A DNA stretch of 64,000 nucleotides. It comes from Rhizophagus irregularis (lineage: Eukaryota > Glomeromycota > Glomeromycetes > Glomerales > Glomeraceae). Below are positions 12,110-61,860 of the stretch, piece after piece. The stretch is taken from assembly GCF_026210795.1 (NCBI RefSeq), contig NC_089445.1, positions 4,216,001 through 4,280,000 of the forward strand, read 5' to 3'. The notes beneath the pieces were generated by a model. It was given only the letters and a program-made list of their open reading frames with translations, ran no database searches and was not told where the DNA came from. Each line of letters begins with the position of its first letter. Position 1 is the stretch's first letter. Position numbers and translations under genes: made by a program.

Positions 12110-15100
12110 TAGAGGTTGGAACCGACCAAAAAAACCTTAACCGATTAATAATCGACTAATCAGTTACCATAACCGAATAATAATCGGTTAATTAATCGGT
12201 TAATTAATCGGTTAATTTGTGATGAGGTTAACCGATTAATTAATCGGTTAATATATAAATTTTGCATTTTCCGCCGCCCATTTGAATATTTTGCGTAATA
12301 TATATCACATGACATTTAGCTGCGCCATAAATACTTTATTTAAAATAAAATAAAAATAAATACATATTTTATAAAAGCATTTAAATATGTTACAAAAATA
12401 TATATAATAAATGATTATTCTTAAATTATCTTAACCCTTTAACCTAACCTAAACTCCACTTTCAATGCAACTATACATACATACTACATATATAAAACGT
12501 GACCGTGTATTGCATTTATTTTTTCTAAATTTCATAAATAAAAAATTATCAGTTTGTTATTTGGGAAGAATTTTTCAATTATCAAGTATTTAATTAAAGA
12601 TATTTACCTTATTAGCAAGTGAGAACATATCTATATATTTTGAATTTCTTTTAATAAAAAGAATTTCTTGGAAAAATTTTGGACTAAGACGTGTCTGTTT
12701 ATTTGTCATGCTATTTCCAGCATCTGAAAATAAACGTTCGCTAGGAACTGAAGTTGCTGGAATGGACAAATATTTGCGTGCCAATATTGATAATATGGGA
12801 AATCTATGTCTATTGTGATTCCACCATTCAAAAGGATTGATATTAGGATCTGCTTTTTCTGTGATACTTTCATTAAGATAATTATCAACTTCATTTGACT
12901 TTTTTTTGCGTTTATGACTTGTAGTTCTATGAAGTACATTAAAAATTGAATCTTCTGATGATTGATTTCGGGTGGGTGGAACTTCAAGTGATTCTTCATT
13001 TGGATTTAATTCAAATTTTAAATCATCATACATATTCTGAAGATTAATTTCAGTTTTTGTCTGTAACTCATCATCTGACAAAAATTCAAGATCTTTGTAT
13101 CTGGGATCCAAAATTGTCGAAATAAGTGCATTTTGATTAGGTACTTGCCAATAAGAATTAAGTGACTTAATAATTGTTCCTAATACTCTTTTAATTATTT
13201 GATCAGAATTTGCAGATTCTGGTTGAGATTTTTGCGGCGTATTCTCTAAAATATTTTGTGATTTCCTTGTTGTTTCACTATAATTAATTTTCTTAGTTTT
13301 TTTACGTAAATTATGTTTATGAGGTCTAATAATCATTGGTTCATTGCTTGCTTCATCTGACTCTGAATCATCTGAAATTACATCATCTTCTTCTGATTCG
13401 TCAGATAAGATTTCTTTCATATTTTCTATATAAAAATATAAATTAATTACATTTTAAAATATAAATAAATAAACTTCATTAGTTCATTTTAAAAACTTAC
13501 CATTATCATCAATATCAATATCATCATTATCATCTAAATCCTCAATATTAATATCGTAATTATCTTTTAATTTGTTTTTATAAATTAATTTTAATGTTTG
13601 AATAATTGGTAATATTGATGAAATTGTTGCATATTCAACTCCACTAAAATAAGTTGTTACTTCATCAAATGGCTTAAAAAGACTACATAATTCACTCAAA
13701 AGAACCCATTCTTCTTCACAAAGCATAATTTTTTGCAAGCGTTCTCCATCAAGTTTATCATTTTTATCATCTTCAAGGTGCAAAGTTGCATTTAAACGAA
13801 TAATTGGCTTTTTTAATTCAATTAATCGTTTCCATGAATTATATTTGGAATTCCAACGCGTCGGTACTTCATTAATATTTTTAAGTATACTTGTAGGCAA
13901 ATTTTCAAGTGGTTCATCATCAGAATCCTCATTTGAAGGTTGAGTTTTTTTATTAAGTTCATTTTGTACTTCTTGAAGTCGTTCAGACTGTTTTGGTGAT
14001 TGAAAAAATTTAACTAACTTTCTGTAACGCTTAACTTGCTTATTGATTGATTTTAATGCTTTAATAACTGTTAATTGCAATGTATGTGCTACACACGGTA
14101 ATCTCTGTATTTTGTCATTCTTTTGATTTAAAATATTAACAGCTGCTTTCATGTTACTTCCATTATCAGTAACTACACAGACAATCTTATTTTCTAAACG
14201 ATATTCTTCTATATACTTCTCTAAATAACTAGATATAGCTACAGCTGTATGTGGATATAAAATACTTTTAATGCCAATTAATATATCATATGGCTTAAAA
14301 TTTTCATTTACCCAGTGACCAGTAATTCCAATATACCCTGTTTTACTTCTTGCCGTCCATAAATCAGTTGTAATTGAAATAAATTCACAAGAATTAATTA
14401 CTAGAGTCAATAATTCCTTAACCCCAAGTTTATATACTTCTGTAATCAAATTTTTGATAGTTTTATCGCAAGGAATAGAATATGATGGATCTAGTGCGAA
14501 AAGAAGCTTTCTAAATCCCTTACTTTTTAAGATGTGAAATGGTTGAGAATCAGTAATGATAAATTCAAGTAATAATGTGTTTAACTTGTGTTGATATGAT
14601 TTTCCATGAGATCTTGCTTTGCTAAACATTGAGTCAATTGTTGTTTGATGTATTATTGATTCCTATTAATATAAATACAAATTTAATTTAATTTTCTAAT
14701 ATATTTTTACAATAAATAAAAAAATTATGTTACCTCTTTTTCTTCATCTCCTTCAGTTTTATTATGAGCTGCATTCAAATGATATTTCATATTTGACGTA
14801 GAACTTGAATGTTTATAAATTATATTACATGGCTCTTCTTTCTCGCCTTTCATTATAGGTATTATACATTGTACTTTTCCATCATCAATTTTTTTAAAAT
14901 ACTTCCATACAAAGCTCTTTTCGGGCTTGGACAATTTTAATTTTTTTATTTGTTGCTGTTGACTACTACCAGCTGTTGATTCAAAAAATGAAAATGAAGA
15001 CCTTTGTGAAATTGAAGTAGAAGGTGCAACAGATTGTAGTTTCGATGAACCAGATAGAGATTCATTTTCAACATTTCTATAATCAATATATTCTGAAAAA

Positions 15101-15440
15101 TTGTCATTTGTTTCATTATCACCCATATTGTATAATTTTTTTTATAATAAATTAAAATTTCTCAAGTTTTTATAAAAAGTTTAAACGGATTTATTTTTTT
15201 GATAAGTTTGTCAATACTGTATATTAAAAAAAACCTGTTATCGGAATTTCATTATCTAATTTGAGAAAATGATCTGCATAGTATTTTAATCAACTAAATT
15301 AATCGGTTAAATTAATCGGTTAATTAATCGATTAATTTAGTCGGTTAATTAGTCGATTAACCGATTTTTTGATACCTTTAACCGATTAACCGCCTTGACC
15401 GATTAATTAATCGATTAACGTTAATCGGTTCCAACCTCTA
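12110..15440 (-). mobile_element. Complete autonomous hAT transposon
   Basis: The element is 3331 bp with perfect 16-bp terminal inverted repeats TAGAGGTTGGAACCGA (12110-12125 and 15425-15440) and an exact 8-bp target duplication TTTTCCAA (12102-12109, 15441-15448). Both ends carry clusters of TTAATCGGTTAA and variants (about 12136-12253 and 15283-15430), probable transposase-binding sites. It encodes an intact transposase. The paralogous kinase gene 2 shows the unoccupied target at 46574-46585. Perfect ends, an exact duplication and an open transposase point to a recent, possibly still active insertion. Confidence 0.95.
12590..15126 (-). CDS. hAT transposase, 796 aa, three exons
   Basis: Exons 14734-15126, 13501-14662 and 12590-13425 join in frame (2391 nt), with introns of 71 and 75 nt (GTAACA...ATAG and GTAAGT...ATAG). 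The N-terminus has a BED-type zinc finger around WKYFKKIDDGKVQC with SNMKYHLNAAH. The RNase H-like core has SITTDLWTARS (first Asp), CVVTDNGSNMKAA (second Asp), the hAT LPCVAHTLQL motif and VPTRWNSKYNSWKRL. The hAT C-terminal dimerisation region reads FEWWNHNRHRFPILSILA, then ATSVPSERLFSDAGN with the catalytic Glu. Acidic linkers flank intron 2. No stops or shifts, so the protein is probably functional. It acts in the nucleus, binding the element's ends and excising it. Confidence 0.93.
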
Positions 15441-15490
15441 TTTTCCAAATCTATAAATTTAAACAGTTAAAATTATGTTATAGTTTATTT

Positions 15491-15830: not shown

Positions 15831-15870
15831 GCTGATATTATAATTTACACTAAAATAAATTACTACTTAC

Positions 15871-18800
15871 TCTAAAATTTAAATAAGAATTTAATGTAAC
15901 ATTAATCTTTTTGGATAAATATATTATATAGTAATAACCGATAATTTACAACTTACCAACTAAAGTAACAGATATTTTTTTAAATGAAAGAATTCAGTTA
16001 ACAAATAAATATTATATAAAATATATAACAATAAAAATATATATCTTACAAGCTATATAATAAATAATTTTTTAAAATTAAGAAATTAGTTAGTTTAAAT
16101 TATATATAAATATAATAAATAAGTAATAATAGAATTAAATTAATAACTTATAACTTACGATCTATTAAAGAAATTAGTTAATTTAAATTATATGTAAGTA
16201 TTATGTAAATAAGTAATAATATAATTAAATTAATAACTTACTCCCTATATTGTTAAATAATTTTTTAAATAAAGTAATTAGTTAGTTTAAATTATATATA
16301 AATATTATATAAATAAGTAGTAATATAATTAAATAAATAACTTACTCCCTATATTGTTAAATAATTTTTAAATAAAGAAATTAGTTAGCTTAAATCATAT
16401 GTAAATATTATATAATTAAGTAATAATAGATAGCTTATAACTTACGCTCTATTAAATAAAGAAATTAGTTAGTTTAAATTATATGCAAATATTACATAAA
16501 TAAGTAATAATAGAATAAATAAATAAATTATGACTTACCAACTAAAATAAATAACAAAACGATTTTTTAAATAAAGAAATTAGTCAGTTTAAATCATATG
16601 TAAATATTATATAAACAAGTAATAATAGAATTAAATAAATAACTTACTCCCTATATTATTAAATATTTTATTAATAAAGAAATTAGTTAATTTAAATTAT
16701 ATATAAATATTATATAAATAAGCGGTAATAATAGAATTAATAAATAACTTACACCCTATATTGTTAAATAATTTTTTTAAATAAAGACATTAGTTAATTT
16801 ATAAAATTATATAAATATGTAATAATAGAATTACTACTTACATTCTAAATTGTTAAATTAATTTTTTAAATGAAGAAATTAGTTAATTTAAATTATATTT
16901 AAATATTATATAAATAAGTAACAATAGATAAATAAATAACTTACTCCCTATATTGTTAAATAATTTTTTAAATAAAGAAATTAGTTAGTTTAAATTAAAT
17001 GATTAAATGTAAATATTTATATAAATGAGTAATAATAGATAAATAAATAACTTACTCCCTATATTGTTAAATAATTTTTTAAATAAAAAATTAGTTTTAA
17101 ATTAAATGCAAATATTATATAAATAAGTAATAATAAAATTAAATAAATAACTTACTCCCTATAGTGTTAAATATTTTTTTAATAAAGAAGTTAGTCAATT
17201 TAAATTATGTGTAAATATTATATAAATAAGTAATAATAGAATTAAATAAATAACTTATAACTTACGATCTATTAAATAAAGAAATTAGTAAGTTTAAAAT
17301 ATATAATAGAATTAAATAAATAAATTATGACCTACCAACTAAAATAAATTTACAAAATGATTTTTTTAAATAAAAAAATTAGTTAGTTTAAATTATATGT
17401 AAATATTATATAAATAAGTAATAATAGAATTAAATAAATATCTTACTCCCTATATTGTTTAAATAAAGAAATTAGTTAGTTTGAATCATAATAAATATTA
17501 TATAAATAAGTAATAATAGAATTATATAAATATCATACCATCTACAAAATAATTTTTTAAATAAAGAAATTAGTTAGTTTAAATTATACATAAATATTGT
17601 ATAAATAAGTAATAATAGAATTAAATAAATAACTTACTCCCTACTATATTGTTAAATAATTTTTAAATAAAGAAATTAGTTGGTTTAAATTATGTGTAAA
17701 TATTATATAAATATTACAATAGAATTAAATAAATAATTTACAACTTACAATCTATTAAATAAAGAAATTAGCTAGTTTAAATTATATGTAAATATTATAT
17801 AAATGAGTAATAATAGAATTAAATAAATAACTTACTCCCTATATTATTAAATAATTTTTTTAAATAAATAAATTAGTTAGTTTAAATTATATGTAAAATA
17901 TTATATAGATAAGTAATAATAAAATTGAATAAATAACTTACTCCCTATATTATTAAATAATTTTTTAAATAGATAAATTAGTTAGTTTATATGTAAATAT
18001 TATATAAATAAGTAAATAATAGAATTAAATAAATAACTTACTCCCTGTATTGTTAAATAGTTTTTTAAATAAAGAAATTAGATAGTTTAAATTATATATA
18101 AATATTATACAAATAAGTAATAATTGAATTAAATAAAATGACTTATAACTTACAATCTATTGAATAAAGAAATTAGTTAGTTTAAATTATATATAAATAT
18201 TATATAAATAAGTAATAATAGAATTAAATAAATGACAATAACTTACAATCTATCAAATAAAGAAATTAGTTAGTTTAAATTATACAAATATTATATAAAT
18301 AAGTAATAATAGAATTAAATAAATAACTTACTCCCTGTATTGTTAAAAAAATAAATAAATTAGTTAGTTTAATTATATGTAAATATTATATAAATAATAA
18401 TAGAATTAAATAAATAGCTTACACCCTATATTGTTAAACAATTATATTGTTAAACAATTTTTTAAATAAAGAAATTAGTTAGTTTGAATTAACATAAATA
18501 TTATATAAATAAATAATAATAGAATTAAATAAATAACTTACTCCCTACATTGTTAAATAATTTTTTAAATAAAGAAATTAGTTAGTTTAAATTATATGTA
18601 AATATTATATAAATAAGTAATAATAGAATTAAATTAATAACTTATAACTTACAATCTATTAAATAAAGAAATTAGTTAGTTTAAATTATATATAAATACT
18701 ATATATAAATAAGTAATAATAGAATTAAGTAGATAACTTATAACTTACGATCTATTTAAATAAAGAAATTAGTTAGTTTGAATTAACATAAATATTATAT

Positions 18801-19305
18801 AAATAAATTAATATTAGAATTAAATAAATAACTTACTCCCTATATTGTTAAATAATTTTTTAAATGAAGAATTCAGTTAATTATATAAATAATAGAAAAT
18901 AGATATTATATAACTTACACCCTGTAGTATTATTAACATAAAATTAATTATTGATTAGTTAGATATAAATATAATACAAAAGTATTTACTGTAAGTTATA
19001 CTATATATTACTTACAATCTAGTTATTTAAGTTAATAATATAATTAGTTAAATTATATAAAACATTAAACAAATAAATATAATCTATTGTAACTTACCAT
19101 CTGTAATATAATTAATTATTAAATAGTTATTTAAATAAAAAATTTAGTTATTATTTAAATATTATGTAAAAAGAATTAAATAACTGATAGCTTACCAACT
19201 ATATAGTATTATTATTAAATAAATTATTTAATTATATGAAATACAATGAAAATAGTGAGTAATTTCATTATTATTTAATTATAAGATAGCTTATCAACTT
19301 ACGAG
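15871..19305 (-). repeat. Intron/microexon array of kinase gene 1 (about 35 units)
   Basis: Tandem units of about 100 bp. On the minus strand each runs GTAAGT, an AT-rich body with AAACTAACTAATTTC (branch-like ACTAAC), then TAG (sometimes CAG), with exactly three bases before the next GTAAGT. The triplets counted by hand are GGA 14, ATT 5, TTG 4, ATC 3, GGT 3, ATG 2 and single CTT, AGC, AAT, CTC. The downstream end has a 1-nt spacer, A, at 15871. The phase set by the upstream exon gives 36 codons without a stop, starting A-L-D-D-W-W. Units are more diverged than in gene 2. Use as exons is inferred. Confidence 0.8.
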
Positions 19306-19588
19306 CTAAATATTTAATATAATTTTTATATAATATAGTTAGTCTAAATTATATTTCATATTATATAAGATATAATCATAGATAGTATTTGAATTATTTA
19401 TAAATAAAAATTTAATATTTCAGCTTTTTATATACCTTTAGATTCTTCAGTGTCACTTTCTTCAGGTTCTTTGATATTGCATACAACTAGTTTTATTATA
19501 TTGCAAGTTTGTTTTAAAATTTGAATAATTCCAATTTATATTATGTATTCATGCTATATGCTTTACCTTTACCAACACATTGGCCCAT

Positions 19589-42560: not shown

Positions 42561-43470
42561 TTCTTGCTGACTTCATTTTTTTTTTACTTCATGGTTTTAT
42601 TTTTCACTTGGTTTCCTATCATTATTTTTTGCTATCCAACCTCCTATCATGATAATTTTTTATTTTTTGTTTCTCATCATTTTTCACCTCCTATTACTTC
42701 TCATTATTCCATACTTTTTGTCTCCCATTATTTTCTATTACATCTTTTCATTTTCCATTATCTTTTTTTCTCTCCTGTTTACTTCTTATCATTCCTTTTT
42801 GTCTCTCATTGCTTCTTTTTATCTCCCATCACTCCCCTTCATCTTCCCATCACTTCTTTTCGTCTCCCATTACTCCTCTTCAAATTCCCATCACTCTTCA
42901 TCTTCCCATCACTCCTCTTCGTCTTCTCCCCACTCCTCTTCATCTTCCCATCACTCCTTTTCGTCTCCCATCACTCCTTTTTGTCTCTCATCACTCCTTT
43001 TCGTCTCCCATCACTCCTCTTCATTTTCCCATTACTCCTTTTCGTATTCCATCACTTCTCTTCATCTTCCCATCACTCCTTTTCGTCTCCCATCACTCCT
43101 CTTCGTCTTCTCCCCACTCCTCTTCATCTTCTCATCACTCCTTTTCGTCTCCTGTTACTCCTTTTGTCTTCCCATCACTTCTTTTCATCTTCCATCATTT
43201 CCATTACTCCATTTTGTCTCCCATCACTCCATTTTGTATCCTATAACTCCTCTTCATTTTCCCATCTCTCCTTTTCGTCTTCCATCACTCCATTTCATCT
43301 CCCATCACTTCCTATTCTCCTTTTTGTTTCCTATCACTTCTCACTACCCTTTCATCTTTTATTACTTTCCATTACTCCATTGTTATTTTCATTTTTTTTT
43401 TATTAACATCTTTCTCCTTATCAATGTAATTTACTTATCTTTGTTTCTTTTATTTGTATCACTTCATTAA
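42560..43470. repeat. Pyrimidine minisatellite
   Basis: About 0.9 kb of nearly pure C/T on the plus strand, with a variable 19-21-bp unit such as CTTTTCGTCTCCCATCACTC or CTTCATCTTCCCATCACTC. Best preserved from 42810 to 43320. All three plus frames stay open for 145-280 codons because the unit contains no stop, so these frames are not genes. Confidence 0.85.
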
Positions 43471-45120: not shown

Positions 45121-48100
45121 TTAATTTTCATCTGTTTTAATATCTAAATAATTAAATATTAAATAAAATTAATTTCACATAAATAATTTGCAAGATTAAT
45201 TCTTTTATATATCATAGTACATACCTAATGACCCCAAATCCTTAATTATATAATCACTCAAATCTTCACTTACTAGCATTTCATTTACTTTTACACTAGC
45301 TTGTGAATCTTCACTTTCAAGAATTTCATTTAACTTTTTACTAGTATTCTCATCTGTTTTAATAATTAAATAAATAAATTAATTTCACATAAATAATTTG
45401 CAAGATTAATTTTCTTCATATACTATATTACATACCTAATGACTTTAAATTAACCATATATTCACTCAAATCTTCACTTGCTATCATTTCATTCAATTTT
45501 TTACTAGTAAAATCAAGTAAGCGACTTGTATAACATGCTTGTGGATGTGATTCAGTAACAAGATTGTTATGCTGCCCAATTGGTGCATTTATAAATTCCA
45601 TAATGTTGCTTTTTAATTCTTCACTGACTTTATTATTATAAGGACGGAAAATCCATTTTACAAAAATATCATTCACTTCTGATGTAGATGGTCTTTTTGA
45701 TGAATCTTCATTCCAACATTTTTTCATTAAATCTACATAACATTGTGGAGTGTTTTCAACAATTTCAGGACGTTCACCTTTACAAATACTCAAACTAAGT
45801 TGAATATCATGTGCTCTATTATTAAATGGTGGTATCCCGGATGAAAGTTCCCACATAACCATAGAAAAACTATATATATCACTAGCTGGAGTATAAGATT
45901 TGCCTCTTAAAACTTCAGGAGCCATAAATGGCATTACACCATAAATATCATACTTTTTCAAAAATGATTTTACAGGTTGACATAATCCTAAATCACTAAT
46001 ATAAATTTTATCCTTATTCTCATCATTATGATTTAAAATATTACCATCATGAAAATCACAATGAATAAGATTTTCTCCATGTATCTTATTAAGTCCAGAA
46101 ATAATTTCGTACAACATATATAATTTTTGATTCCAATTATTTTCAACTACTCTTGTTAAATTTTCTCTTAAATTACCTTTATTTGCATATTGCATTACTA
46201 CCATATATTTTGATGAATTTGGAACTTCTGTAAATCCATAAAAATTTATAATATTATTTGAACTTAAACAACTACTATGATATCCCCACTATAAAAAATA
46301 ATAATAATTTATTAGTATAAATAAAATTTAATTTAAATTAAAAATAGAAAATAAATACTATCATACTTCTTTTAAAAATTCATTTAAATTTTCATTTAAA
46401 TTTTTATGGCATTTAAGAATTACTTCTTCATCTCTATTATTCTTTAACCAAGTAGCTTTATATATAGCACCAAATCCTCCTTCACTAAGATATTCAACAT
46501 TTTTAAGTTTGTTATAAGGAATCCATTTTAATTTATTTTTAAGAATAAAATCATCTATAATTGTATTTTCACTTTTTCCAAATCTATAAATTTAAACAGT
46601 TAAAATTATATTATAGATATTATAGATTGTATTATAATTTACACAAAACAAATTATTACTTACTCTAAAATTTAAATAGGAATTTAATGTAATATAAGAT
46701 AAGTCTTAATTTTTGGATAAATACATATAATAACCTATAATTTACAACTTACCAACTAAAGTAACAGATATTTTTCAAATGAAAGAATTTAGTTAACAAA
46801 TAAAAATTATGTAAAATATACAATGATAGAGATACTTACAACCTAGATCATAAATAATTTTTTAAATAAAGAAATTAATTAGCTGTAAATATTATAACAA
46901 TAAGTAATAATAGAATTAAATAAACAACTTGCAATCTATTAAATAAAGAAATTAGTTAGTTTAAATTATATGTAAATATTATAACAATAAGTAATAATAG
47001 AATTAAATAAATAACTTACAATCTATTAAATAAATAAAGAAATTAGTTAGTTTAAATTATATGTAAATATTATAACAATAAACAATAATAGAATTAAATA
47101 AATAACTTACTTGCTATATTATTTAGTAATTTTTTAAATAAAGAAATTAGTTAGTTTAAATAATATATAAATATTATAACAATAAGCAATAATAGGATTA
47201 AATAAATAACTTACAATCTATTAAATAAATAAAGAAATTAGTTAATTTAAATTATATGTAAATATTATAACAATAAGTAATAGTATAGTTGGGGACACAA
47301 CAAATCATCAAATTGAGATTTAAAAAATCACGTGATATATATAATACTAATTTACGATTGGTTAAAAATCAAACCATATTGGGAAATGGTTTACTTTATT
47401 AATTCATCAATATTTTCAAAAATAAAATCTGGAACAAATCTTCCACAGCTTTTTTTCTTTTTTTAGCTATTTTTTGACAGTGTTGTGCTCGTCTCTTTAG
47501 TCGTGCCATGGGAAAAAATTCTATGATCTGCACTACCTCTCAGCCAGTCATAGTTCTGGCCTAAATTATAGAATTTTGTCAAATTCTGGCCGGAATTAAA
47601 TGTTTCTAATCCTACCGTTTATTAAGAAAATACTGAACTTTGCAGGCCAATAACATTTGATCTAGATCACCAATCAGGATAATCTCAACGTCATTTTGTA
47701 GTTTAAGTTAGTAACAATTAAACTTATGTTGAGTTATTTTAAATATATGCATCCAAAATATTTTTATTAAATTTCTAATTTGGACAATTTTATTTGATGA
47801 ATTGTTGTGTCCCAAACCATAGAATTAAATAAATAACTTACTCCCTATATTATTTAATAATTTTTTAAATAAAGAAATTAGTTAGTTTAAATTATATTAA
47901 ATATTATAACAATAAGTAATAATAAGAATTAAATAAATAACTTATGACTTACCAACTAAAATAAATTACAAAATAATTTTTTAAATAAAGAAATTAGTTA
48001 GTTTAAATTATATGTAAATATTATAACAATAAGTAATAATAGAATTAAATAAATAACTTACTATCTATATTATTCAATAATTTTTTAAATAAAGAAATTA

Positions 48101-51100
48101 GTTAGTTTAAATTATATGTAAATATTATATCAATAAGTAATAATAGAATTAAATAAATAACTTATGACTTACCAACTAAAATAAATTACAAGATAATTTT
48201 TTAAATAAAGAAATTAGTTAGTTTAAATTATATGTAAATATTAAAACAATAAGTAATAATAGAATTAAATAAATAACTTACTCGCTATATTATTCAATAA
48301 TTTTTTAAATAAAGAAATTAGTTAGTTTAAATTATATGTAAATATTATAACAATAAGTAATAATAGAATTAAATAAATAACTTACTATCTATATTATTTA
48401 ATAATTTTTTAAATAAAGAAATTAGTTAGTTTAAATTATATGTAAATATTATAACAATTAGTAATTAAATAAATAACTTACTCTCTATATTATTTAATAA
48501 TTTTTTAAATAAAGAAATTAGTTAGTTTAAATTATATGTAAATATTATAACAATAAGTAATAATAGAATTAAATAAATAACTTACTATCTATATTATTTA
48601 ATAATTTTTTAAATAAAGAAATTAGTTAGTTTAAATTATATGTAAATATTATAACAATAAGTAATAATTGAATTAAATAAATAACTTACTCCCTATATTA
48701 TTTAATAATTTTTTAAATAAAGAAATTAGTTAGTTTAAATTATATGTAAATATTAAAACAATAAGTAATAATAGAATTAAATAAATAACTTACACGCTAT
48801 ATTATTTAATAATTTTTTAAATAAAGAAATTAGTTAGTTTAAATTATATGTAAATATTATAACAATAAGTAATAATAGAATTAAATAAATAACTTACACG
48901 CTATATTATTTAATAATTTTTTAAATTAAGAAATTAGTTAGTTTAAATTATATGTAAATATTATAACAATAAGTAATAATAGAATTAAATAAATAACTTA
49001 CTCGCTATATTATTTAATAATTTTTTAAATAAAGAAATTAGTTAGTTTAAATTATATGTAAATATTATACAATAAGTAATAATAGGATTAAATAAACAGC
49101 ATACCATCTATATTATTTAATAATTTTTTAAATAACAAAATTAGTTAGTTTAAATTGTATGTAAATATTATAACAATAAGTAATAATAGAATTAAATAAA
49201 TAACTTACTCCCTATATTATTCAATAATTTTTTAAATAAAGAAATTAGTTAGTTTAAATTATATGTAAATATTATAACAATAAGTAATAATAGAATTAAA
49301 TAAATAACTTACTTGCTATATTATTTAGTAATTTTTTAAATAAAGAAATTAGTTAGTTTAAATTATATATAAATATTATAACATTAAGTAATAATAGAAT
49401 TAAATAAATAACTTATGACTTACCAACTAAAATAAATTACAAAATAATTTTTTAAATAAAGAAATTAGTTTAAATATATGTAAATATTATAACAATATGT
49501 AAATAATAGAAATTAAATAAATAACTTACTCCCTATATTATTTAAGATAAAAAAATTAGTTAGTTTAAATATATGTAAATATTATAACAATAAGTAATAA
49601 TAGAATTAAATAAATAACTTACTCCCTATATTATTTAATAATTTTTTAAATAAAGAAATTAGTTAGTTTAAATTATATGTAAATATTAAAACAATAAGTA
49701 ATAATAGAATTAAATAAATAACTTACTCCCTATATTATTTAATAATTTTTTAAATAAAGAAATTAGTTAGTTTAAATTATATTAAATATTATAACAATAA
49801 GTAATAATAAGAATTAAATAAATAACTTATGACTTACCAACTAAAATAAATTACAAAATAATTTTTTAAATAAAGAAATTAGTTAGTTTAAATTATATGT
49901 AAATATTATATCAATAAGTAATAATAGAATTAAATAAATAACTTATGACTTACCAACTAAAATAATTTTTTAAATAAAGAAATTAGATAGTTTAAATTAT
50001 ATGTAAATATTATAACAATAAGTAATAATAGAATTAAATAAATAACTTACTCACTATATTATTCAATAATTTTTTAAATAAAGAAATTAGTTAGTTTAAA
50101 TTATATGCAAATATTATAACAATAAGTAATAATAGAATTAAATAAATAACTTGCTATATTATTTAATAATTTTTTAAATAAAGAAATTAGTTAGTTTAAA
50201 TTATATGTAAATATTATAACAATAAGTAATAATAGAATTAAATAAATAACTTACTCCCTATATTATTTAATAATTTTTTAAATAAAGAAATTAGTTAGTT
50301 TAAATTATATGTAAATATTATAACAATAAGTAATAATAGAATTAAATAAATAACTTACTCGCTATATTATTTAATAATTTTTTAAATAAAGAAATTAGTT
50401 AGTTTAAATTATATGTAAAATTATATCAATAAGTAATAATAGAATTAAATAAATAACTTATGACTTACCAACTAAAATAAATTACAAAATAATTTTTTAA
50501 ATAAAGAAATTAGTTAGTTTAAATTACATGTAAATATTATAACAATAAGTAATAATAGAATTAAATAAATAACTTACACGCTATATTATTTAATAATTTT
50601 TTAAATAAAGAAATTAGTTAGTTTAAATTATATGTAAATATTATAACAATAAGTAATAATAGAATTAAATAAATAACTTACTCTCTATATTATTTAATAA
50701 TTTTTTAAATAAAGAAATTAGTTAGTTTAAATTATATGTAAATATTATACAATAAGTAATAATAGGATTAAATAAATAGCATACCATCTATATTATTTAA
50801 TAATTTTTTAAATAAAGAAATTAGTTAGTTTAAATTATATGTAAATATTATATAAATAAGTAATAATAGAATTAAATAAATAACTTACTCCCTACTATAT
50901 TGTTAAATAATTTTTAAATAAAGAAATTAGTTGGTTTAAATTATATGTAAATATTATATAAATATTACATAATAGAATTAAATAAATAATTTACAACTTA
51001 CAATCTATTAAATAAAGAAATTAATTAGTTTAAATAATATGTATATATTATAACAATAAGTAATAATAGATTAAATAAATAACTTACCTTCTATATTATT

Positions 51101-52111
51101 TAATAATTTTTTAAATAAAGAAATTAGTTAGTTTAAGTTATAGGTAAATATTATAACAATAAGTAATAATAGAATTAAATAAATAACTTACTCCCTATAT
51201 TATTTAATAATTTTTTAAATAAAGAAATTAGTTAAATTATATAAATAATATAAATATAGATATCATATAACTTACACCCTGTAGTATTATTGATTATTAA
51301 TTTGTTAGATAAAAAGATAATATAAAAGTATTTGCTGTAAATGATATATATTACTTACAATCTAGTTAATTAAATTAAGAATAATTAGTTGAATTATGTA
51401 AAATATTAAACAGATATATATAATATATATATTGTAACTTACCATCTGTAATATAATCAATTATTAAATAGTTGTTTAAACAAAGAATTTAGTTATTTGA
51501 ATGTTATGTAGAAAAATAAAGTACTAAAGATTTAAATAACTGATAACTTACCAACTACAGTATTATTAATCATTAAATAAATTATTTAGTTATATGGAAT
51601 AAAATAAAAATAATGAGTAATTCATTATTATATTAACTTACAAGCTAAACATTTAATATAATTTTTATATAATATAGTTAGTCTAAATTATATTTGTCGT
51701 ATTTGAATTTTTTATAAATAAAAACTTAATATTTCAACTTGTTTGATATACCTTTAGATTCCTCAGCGTCAAATTCCTCAATACTACTACTTTCAGATTC
51801 TTTAGTGCCACTTCCCTCAAATTCTCCAGTGTCACTTTCTTCAATTTCTTCAATATTACTGGAAACTAGTTTTGTTATATTGCAAATTTGGTTTAATTTA
51901 TATTTGATTATTTACAATTAAGTTATTTTTAATAAATAAAAATCTTTATATTTCAATTTTTGTTCTGTATATTATATTTACCTTCAGGTTCTTTGGTATT
52001 ACACAAAACTAGTTTTACTATATTGTAAGTCTGTTTTAATAATTTTGAATATTTCTAATTTATATTATTATTCATGTTATATGCTTTACCTTTACCAATA
52101 CATTGACCCAT
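45121..52111 (-). CDS. TKL kinase gene 2 with microexon array, about 501 aa
   Basis: Predicted exons: 52090-52111, 51982-52008, 51752-51865, about 44 triplet microexons, a 1-nt exon at 46664, 46367-46583, 45436-46288, 45225-45353 and 45121-45131; total 1506 nt, no stop. The N-terminus MGQCIGK fits N-myristoylation at Gly2 with Cys4 for palmitoylation. An acidic Ser/Glu stretch follows (IEESDTGEFEGS, KESESSSIEEF). The kinase has LSEGGFGAIYKA, Lys in VILKCHK, LIHCDFHDGNIL, SDLG, FMAPEVL, WELSSGIPPF and SKRPS; Asp and Asn of the catalytic loop are kept, HRD is HCD and DFG is DLG. The C-terminal exons repeat TSKKLNEILESED. Such kinases are heavily multiplied in these fungi. If the array is instead removed as one intron, exon phases 1 and 2 clash and a stop follows within 10 codons. 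Confidence 0.75.
46664..51644 (-). repeat. Intron/microexon array of kinase gene 2 (about 44 units)
   Basis: Units of about 100-104 bp, many near identical. On the minus strand each is GTAAGT, AT-rich body, AAACTAACTAATTTC, A/T tract, TAG, then three bases and the next GTAAGT. Hand count of triplets: GGA 9, TTG 8, ATT 5, three each of ATA, CGA, CGT, ATG and CAA, AGA 2, and single GTT, TGA, AAG, GGT, CTT. Exceptions: one GC donor (GCAAGT, near 46930), GTATGC donors after ATG units, and one unit lacking a donor (near 50150). A single A sits at 46664. The predicted phase gives 45 codons without stop, beginning A-F-D-D-W-W. One unit hosts a MITE. Confidence 0.85.
47286..47819. mobile_element. Tc1/mariner-like MITE inside one array unit
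   Basis: Terminal repeats TAGTTGGGGACACAACAAAT and, inverted, TGGTTTGGGACACAACAATT (about 27 of 30 match), flanked by TA (47284-47285 and 47820-47821). The interior has no coding frame. The interrupted unit would have an intron of about 640 nt. Removing the element restores the neighbouring unit sequence. Confidence 0.85.
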
Positions 52112-61594: not shown

Positions 61595-61860
61595 ACGCCA
61601 TTTCGTCGAAGCCATTTCGACGAAGGGATGTTTCGCCGAAGCTATTCACCGAAGAAATGTTTCACCGAAGGGATGTTTCTCCGAAGGGATATTTTGCCGA
61701 AGGGAAGTTTCGCCGAAGGGATGTTTCACCGAAGGGATATTTCGCCGAAAGGACGTTTCTCCGATAGTACATTTCACCGAATCTATTTCGCCGAATCGTC
61801 CATTTCGCCGAATTCCATCTTACCGAATTCCATCTTACCGAATTCCATCTTACCGAAAAT
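61595..61860. repeat. TTTCGCCGAAGGGATG tandem repeat
   Basis: About 16-17 short units of 14-18 bp built on TTTCGCCGAA or TTTCACCGAA with GGGATG spacers, ending in three copies of TTCCATCTTACCGAA. More scattered copies lie at 62150-62210 and 62570-62690. The 108-codon frames through it exist because the unit has no stop. Probably end repeats of one or more mobile elements. Confidence 0.75.

Follow-up and report, generated by a model that had tools for sequence, protein, structure and literature searches.

Introner elements are near-identical introns that occur in large numbers and are spread over unrelated genes of one genome, the repeats of fungal NLR proteins are protein repeats of tens of residues that recombine and vary at chosen residues, and the bicycle genes of aphids are putative gall effectors and not single-codon arrays. 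The micro-exon genes (MEG) of Schistosoma are described, in the passages that concern their structure, as 35 genes with 10-20 short exons, mostly of 15 bp, with introns of up to ~5 kb and secreted products (PMC10526429); the exon size is given there as 3-81 bp in the abstract and as 6-81 in the text. For the micro-exon of Arabidopsis APC11, the section on its splicing favours intron definition plus recursive splicing (PMC4674806), and isolated tiny exons appear in passages on Fusarium CYP621A (PMC12940212) and on the 3 bp exon of Drosophila homothorax (PMC7392893). Fungal nonself-recognition genes bearing repeats, with NLR repeat domains, are treated in parts of a further study (PMC4986451). 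Rhizophagus irregularis has 2,533 kinase genes according to the kinase passages of a long-read annotation (PMC10234402). Here we describe a kinase gene of this species, located in a stretch of 64,000 nucleotides (nt) (NC_089445.1, positions 4,216,001 to 4,280,000; hereafter the window), in which an array of 44 tiny exons, nearly all of one codon, stands between three short exons and the kinase exons.

Judging from the sequence comparisons below, the array very probably consists of real single-codon exons that are constitutively joined, and the gene is one of a large family built in the same way. The gene runs from 52111 to 45121 on the minus strand and comprises three short exons, the array of 44 tiny exons and four exons of the kinase part, with the following features:

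52090..52111, minus strand: exon 1, ATGGGTCAATGTATTGGTAAAG (MGQCIGK), ending in phase 1; a like exon is present in loci L002, L003 and L004
51982..52008, minus strand: exon 2, VLCNTKEPE, phase 1 to phase 1, splice sites read from the sequence
51752..51865, minus strand: exon 3, acidic and Glu/Ser-rich, ending in phase 1; a like exon is present in L004
46664..51644, minus strand: tiny-exon array, 42 exons of 3 nt, one of 6 nt and a last one of 1 nt, with introns of ~100 nt
51276..51644, minus strand: leading codons of the array, CTT TTG ATG ATT GGT, reading A-F-D-D-W in phase 1
~47291-47818, minus strand: foreign insertion of ~527 bp with inverted ends (GGGACACAACAA...), inside the array intron 47846-47220
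46664..46757, minus strand: array end, TTG exon (46755-46757), intron and 1-nt exon A (46664); this gene ends GTT TTG A
46367..46583, minus strand: first kinase exon, entered in phase 2
45436..46288, minus strand: second kinase exon, with HCDFHDGN, DLG and APE motifs (by eye)
45225..45353, minus strand: penultimate exon of the assembled gene model
45121..45143, minus strand: last exon and stop codon of the assembled gene model

The initial annotation had placed about 44 introns here, with exactly 3 nt between each TAG and the next GTAAGT and full splice signals in every unit of ~100 bp. The array itself is confirmed, with a count of 45 introns between exon 3 and the kinase exon that starts at 46583, while the strict spacing holds for 42 of the 44 exons; the others are the 6-nt exon TAGGGA at 50894, possibly GGA behind a second TAG, and the single A at 46664. 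Each exon has an AG acceptor before it and a GTAAGT-type donor after it, except for two GTATGC and one GCAAGT, and one unit near 50155 has lost its donor (TAG-CAA-GTTATT), so that two units are merged into a 201-nt intron. The introns, mostly of ~100 nt with TAG acceptors and a CTAAC-like motif, appear to be of the spliceosomal type by their GT-AG ends and their donor, branch-like and acceptor motifs. The ~527-bp insertion is perhaps an element resembling a miniature inverted-repeat transposable element (MITE). The assembled kinase part matches PF07714 (E 2.4e-43, 148.8 bits against a cut-off of 23.1), and the catalytic motifs HCDFHDGN and DLG seen by eye place the gene among the protein kinases of PF07714/PF00069 (TKL-like); its kinase is apparently catalytic. 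The MG.C start of MGQCIGK we take to be an acylation-type N-terminus.

The phase in the array is set by exon 3, such that an intron splits each codon after its first base, the other two being supplied by the following exon. Read in this manner, the assembled model is open for 505 codons, and its predicted array peptide is AFDDWWKD...NYCFEFGKS; the model was rightly annotated as free of stops, but measures 1518 nt including the stop codon and not 1506 nt, as the choices of exon ends differ. Two further claims of that annotation are borne out: removal of the array as one intron, which places the kinase exon right behind exon 3, leads to a stop after 9 codons, and the terminal 1-nt exon corrects the frame, since exon 3 joined through the A to the kinase exon, with all triplets dropped, is in frame and open through the first kinase exon. 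We also agree that zero stops in one gene is weak statistics, and the statistics are provided by tests on the family.

For these tests, 38 loci were parsed: the two arrays of the window, four loci on contig 1 chosen for visible arrays, 20 picked for their range of identity from matches to the kinase exon (including L016, with an apparent stop in that exon), six sibling loci forming two trios drawn from exact end- and start-pattern lists, one locus chosen for length and fetched as two adjacent pieces, and five (L036-L040) chosen because their kinase exon showed a stop. The sample is not random, as the kinase-exon search scored the best 150 of 3,293 candidates. The 20 kinase-exon picks, the window arrays and the contig-1 arrays form a first set of 26 loci, on which the splice-site weights of the parser were trained (839 junctions); the parser gives donors and acceptors independent scores and accepts tiny exons of any length from 1 to 12 nt, 3 nt not being preferred. 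Of the 865 tiny exons in these 26 arrays, 825 nevertheless measure 3 nt; 25 have a length of 1 nt and 11 a length of 6 nt, and the lengths 5, 10, 11 and 12 nt occur once each. The introns, mostly of 70-140 nt, are spread over all three length classes modulo 3 (275/296/320). By this measure the introns change length freely and the exons rarely.

The order of the triplets gives the second line of evidence. Stop counts exclude pairs across introns longer than 140 nt (49 of the 1,053 internal pairs). None of the 763 codons that span an intron in the first 26 arrays is a stop, as compared with 22-23 expected from shuffling the triplets within arrays, and no shuffle was as low (0 of 5,000 and 0 of 2,000). 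The result is the same for distinct ordered types of triplet pairs (0/305 against 12.7 expected; 0 of 5,000 shuffles as low) and, out of sample, for seven loci outside the training of the parser (0/201 against 8.4; 0 of 2,000 shuffles). The total for all 38 loci, which also includes the first triplet of each array, is 0/1,024 neighbour-pair stops against 33.5 expected. Among codons with an expected count of at least 4, the three stops are the only ones wholly absent, the next rarest being ACA with 1 against 5.1. The depletion is confined to direct neighbours in the forward order: at lags 2-7 the 26 arrays yield 20, 23, 15, 18, 18 and 12 stops against 21.4, 19.4, 17.8, 16.4, 15.0 and 13.9 expected, and lags 2 and 3 in all 38 loci yield 29 and 33 against 30.8 and 28.3. 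Reversing the triplet order in the 26 arrays creates 29 stops, and phase 2 contains 98 against 75 expected. Stops are thus depleted between neighbours and at none of the lags 2-7, and therefore selection acts on an mRNA that joins each 3-nt exon to the next. The pattern indicates that successive single-codon exons are joined in order in the mRNA, as an evolutionary sign of splicing. Together with the fixed spacing between introns of free length, it upholds the initial proposal that the single-codon exons are really used.

Several observations weigh against this interpretation. Stop triplets are also rare in phase 0 (3 against 23.2 expected from base frequencies), where shuffling the order is uninformative; we ascribe this to triplets seldom starting with TA or TG, and phase 1 was chosen because of exon 3, the 1-nt exon and the order test. 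If all parsed exons are simply strung together, 12 stops arise in phase 1, spread over seven of the 26 arrays (L003, L004, L005, L012, L021, L023 and L024), and 12 in phase 0 as well. The phase-1 stops sit at odd parsed exon lengths or at introns longer than 140 nt. Three of the 49 pairs across such introns form a stop, with a hidden 3-nt unit visible in L012 and L023 and a broken donor in L021. The shuffles assume an independent order, although tandem duplication relates the units. In L026 (G000:C14:1922500-1926750), two exons of 2 nt and one of 4 nt depart from an array that is regular elsewhere and leave a net change of frame; the locus is possibly a dying member or a parsing error. Lastly, a kinase exon with an apparent stop occurs in six sampled loci, and of these a full array is still present in L040 and one of 14 codons in L016. 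The five loci selected for such stops comprise three with 4, 1 and 7 single-codon exons, one that is irregular and the intact L040; their 0/60 array stops against 1.8 expected is no better than chance.

The same design recurs in many genes, which goes beyond what was noted initially. In the genome searched for family-wide counts (146,748,485 bases in 32 contigs), the first kinase exon of the window gene has 152 matches, with the best 150 of 3,293 candidates scored, and an array lies upstream of the kinase exon in 20/20 fetched matches, which range from 89% to 57% identity. The exact array end, TTG, intron, A and GTAAGT, occurs at 105 places as opposed to 0 for the reversed control. The combination of ATT, intron and GGT occurs at 114 places against 0 reversed, with at least one place inside an array and not at its start. 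Among the parsed loci, ATT-GGT (once AGT-GGT) stands near the array start in 28/38, the start being uncaptured in most of the others and L004 having no GGT there; it often follows CTT/CTC TTG ATG/AAG, which reads A-L/F-D/E-D-W in phase 1. The arrays end exactly in CTT TTG A in 19/38 loci, and if the loci picked for length or a broken frame are set aside, the parse shows the terminal 1-nt A in 31 of the remaining 32. The pattern TAGNNNGTAAGT has 3,150 + 3,285 = 6,435 matches genome-wide, compared with 734 + 743 = 1,477 for the reversed pattern. As 907 of the 1,110 single-codon exons of the parsed loci match the exact pattern, the genome total is estimated at ~6,000 single-codon exons, from (6,435 - 1,477)/0.82.

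In canonical kinases of this genome (L031 and L033), a single long exon carries a cysteine-rich stretch, followed by NWTSGN..VDKFI and the N-lobe, and by eye the array takes the place of the part between a W and SGN..I.D.FI of these kinases. The two sibling trios have 14 to 73 single-codon exons per locus, with ATT-GGT near the start in 6/6, the CTT TTG A end in 5/6 and seemingly unrelated cores. The longest parsed array, L030 (G000:C16:1442900-1452300), has 73 single-codon exons and encodes a Glu/Lys/Gln-rich peptide that looks coiled-coil-like by eye; it also contains one exon of 10 nt and one of 2 nt, whose departures in length offset each other. An array region of more than 10 kb is found in L034 and L035 (G000:C7:2567400-2579000), where the first 22 single-codon exons were parsed and the listed places of the intron core leave a gap of ~4.4 kb. 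The window itself holds a second array:

15850..19310, minus strand: second array, CTC TTG ATG ATT GGT ... ATC CTT TTG A

The kinase exon of this second gene carries an insertion of ~3.3 kb (~12115-15450) with inverted ends (AGAGGTTGGAACCG...CGGTTCCAACCTCT) and an 8-bp target duplication by eye. The insertion may be recent, because the second array has no stop in phase 1.

Another property that emerged from the family is that the codons are hypervariable relative to the introns. In 32 loci, units were paired if their 80 flanking intron bases had no more than 2 mismatches. The per-base mismatch of the triplet is 0.285 for the 935 pairs within arrays and 0.603 for the 3,736 pairs between arrays, whereas for control intron 3-mers under the same treatment the medians are 0.013 and 0.031 and the maxima 0.077 and 0.100, respectively. 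If the 80 flanking bases are identical (38 loci), the triplets differ in 144/408 pairs within and 546/587 between arrays, while ten control 3-mers, with both kinds of pairs pooled, differ in 0.1% to 17.6% of ~1,000-1,200 pairs. Whole introns are identical in 47 groups (151/1,004 introns), and the 295 codon pairs around these differ at the first base in 59%, at the second in 28% and at the third in 3.7% of cases, with 138 non-synonymous as opposed to 7 synonymous single differences. The third base of array codons is T or G in 91% of 1,053 codons (T 0.57, G 0.34, A 0.08, C 0.01), which leaves TAG as the main possible stop and hence removes two of the three; in the first kinase exon the values are A 0.40, T 0.43, G 0.09 and C 0.08. 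A similar restriction of the third base is applied in the NNK libraries of protein engineers.

These differences make diversifying selection on the array codons likely, a claim that we put no higher because the excess shrinks when each group of identical introns is represented by one random pair: the proportion of non-synonymous differences (pN) is then 0.189 and that of synonymous differences (pS) 0.105, with ~3 synonymous differences in all. Alternatively, a mutational or insertion process aimed at the junctions could make the codons hypervariable without selection, which we regard as unlikely, yet deserving serious attention. Such a process would account for triplets that differ despite identical flanks and for a pS above zero, but the nearly constant third base and the strong surplus of non-synonymous changes are unlike blind mutation. 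This counterpoint is in turn weakened by the per-group test and by a linkage between the type of the intron 3' end and the last two codon bases, since introns ending in TTTATTTAATAG are followed by AT in 109/124 units, those ending in AATTTATTTTAG by TT in 39/49 and those ending in TAAATAATATAG by GG, AG or CG in 137/210.

It has also to be considered that mobile introns may have invaded a once-continuous coding stretch, in which case the introns would be young and the codons old. Introns that are near-identical across chromosomes around codons that look unrelated (mismatch 0.60 between arrays against the control median of 0.03) are what such introners would produce. However, random insertion would not yield an exact 3-nt spacing in one phase, the siblings differ in unit number, and the codons of the arrays differ from those in the first kinase exon, with A as third base in 0.08 as opposed to 0.40 and G in 0.34 as opposed to 0.09. 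Moreover, a 33-nt intron core occurs at 301 places, and in the first 100 of these 13/13 clusters lie, by eye, upstream of a family kinase on the same strand; the introns are thus, as far as listed, not dispersed introners. A single array peptide was searched for as a continuous coding copy, with no match and no positive control. We therefore consider an introner invasion improbable.

A purpose in alternative splicing, with units skipped in many combinations to give many isoforms per gene, is quite improbable. Dropped triplets do keep the frame as long as the 1-nt exon stays, as in the extreme case described above, but dropping one to six units creates stops at chance frequency (lags 2-7), and skipped isoforms are therefore not products important to selection; the lag test thus rejects skipping on a large scale as the main product. 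That the arrays are a non-coding tandem satellite with splice-like motifs, not spliced codon by codon, in a gene that is dead or starts downstream, is highly improbable in spite of the tandem and very similar units, the chance that splice motifs alone are mimicry (as the initial annotation had allowed) and some broken members (the second window array and L036-L039), since stops are avoided in an order-specific manner, intron length drifts and spacer length does not, and the terminal 1-nt exon fits the frame.

Given constitutively joined single-codon exons, the spliceosome would remove ~45 short introns one by one, probably by intron definition as in recursive splicing, with the upstream exon growing at each step. 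The 3-nt exons would be joined in order in phase 1 and the final 1-nt exon would set the frame of the kinase, to give a product with an acylation-type N-terminus, an acidic linker, a hypervariable segment of ~10 to 75 residues and a kinase domain. The near-identical introns may serve as recombination handles, through which unequal exchange and conversion could add, drop and swap units in frame, and selection for different peptides may keep the codons diverse while the introns are homogenised. The variable segment would then serve recognition or binding; as for the partner, self/nonself or host recognition is a guess. We tentatively propose that this amounts to a genomic codon-cassette system, a possibility with a fair amount still to be said on either side: the unit would be a codon plus an intron, the genome-homogenised introns would be the handles of recombination for a shuffle-tolerant codon library, and ~100 or more kinase genes would diversify a binding segment residue by residue, perhaps for self/nonself discrimination or host sensing.

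Dozens of consecutive single-codon exons put the minimal size of exons and the order keeping of the spliceosome to the test, and here the order keeping is indicated by sequence alone, through the pattern of stop avoidance. Ordinary aligners have difficulty placing exons of 3 nt, so that in this model symbiont of plant roots a large family of kinases may be misannotated. If the codon-cassette proposal is true, it would represent a new germ-line route to protein diversity, in which intron recombination changes a protein by single residues and causes no frameshift.

The window contains other repeats. A tandem repeat with a unit of 20-21 bp (ATCACTCCTTTTCGTCTTCCC) and ~25 copies occupies 42788-43317, and 16-bp repeats (TTTCGCCGAAGGGATG and variants), by eye with G+C above the 25% of the window, occupy 61597-61813. 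Rfam at gathering thresholds gave no match within the window.

Tiny exons, 1-nt exons and micro-exon genes were already known. Full-text searches of open-access literature, which leaves out most subscription journals, showed no arrays with dozens of single-codon exons in succession and a variable core, and the passages on kinase genes and annotation in R. irregularis do not mention them (PMC10234402). The SP7 effector is not the same thing, as it has one conserved intron before the first repeat, and microexons do not figure in the main text of its description, as far as the sections concerned go (PMC11333574). Like the aphid bicycle genes, as characterised in part of their description, the array kinases are a fast-evolving family recognised by features besides sequence similarity (PMC9168663). 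They would share with the fungal NLR repeat genes internal repeats that recombine and vary at chosen residues, but the repeat here is an intron plus one codon, unlike repeats of tens of residues. Introners, too, are near-identical introns present in one genome in many copies; those copies of the intron core that were listed, however, sit only in the kinase family and with a spacing of 3 nt. The exons of APC11, CYP621A and homothorax, in the passages that describe them, show that the splicing of exons as small as 3 nt or 1 nt is possible, but they are isolated, whereas here they form tandem arrays of dozens with variable codons. The MEG of Schistosoma resemble the present genes in consisting mainly of very short exons, mostly multiples of three, and in being hard to annotate, as stated in the corresponding passages (PMC10526429). 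However, with 3-nt exons and introns mostly of 70-140 nt the array kinases do not belong to the micro-exon genes of the Schistosoma type, and they differ from these in having tens of consecutive one-codon exons, near-identical introns of 100 nt, a kinase as product and 105 exact array ends.

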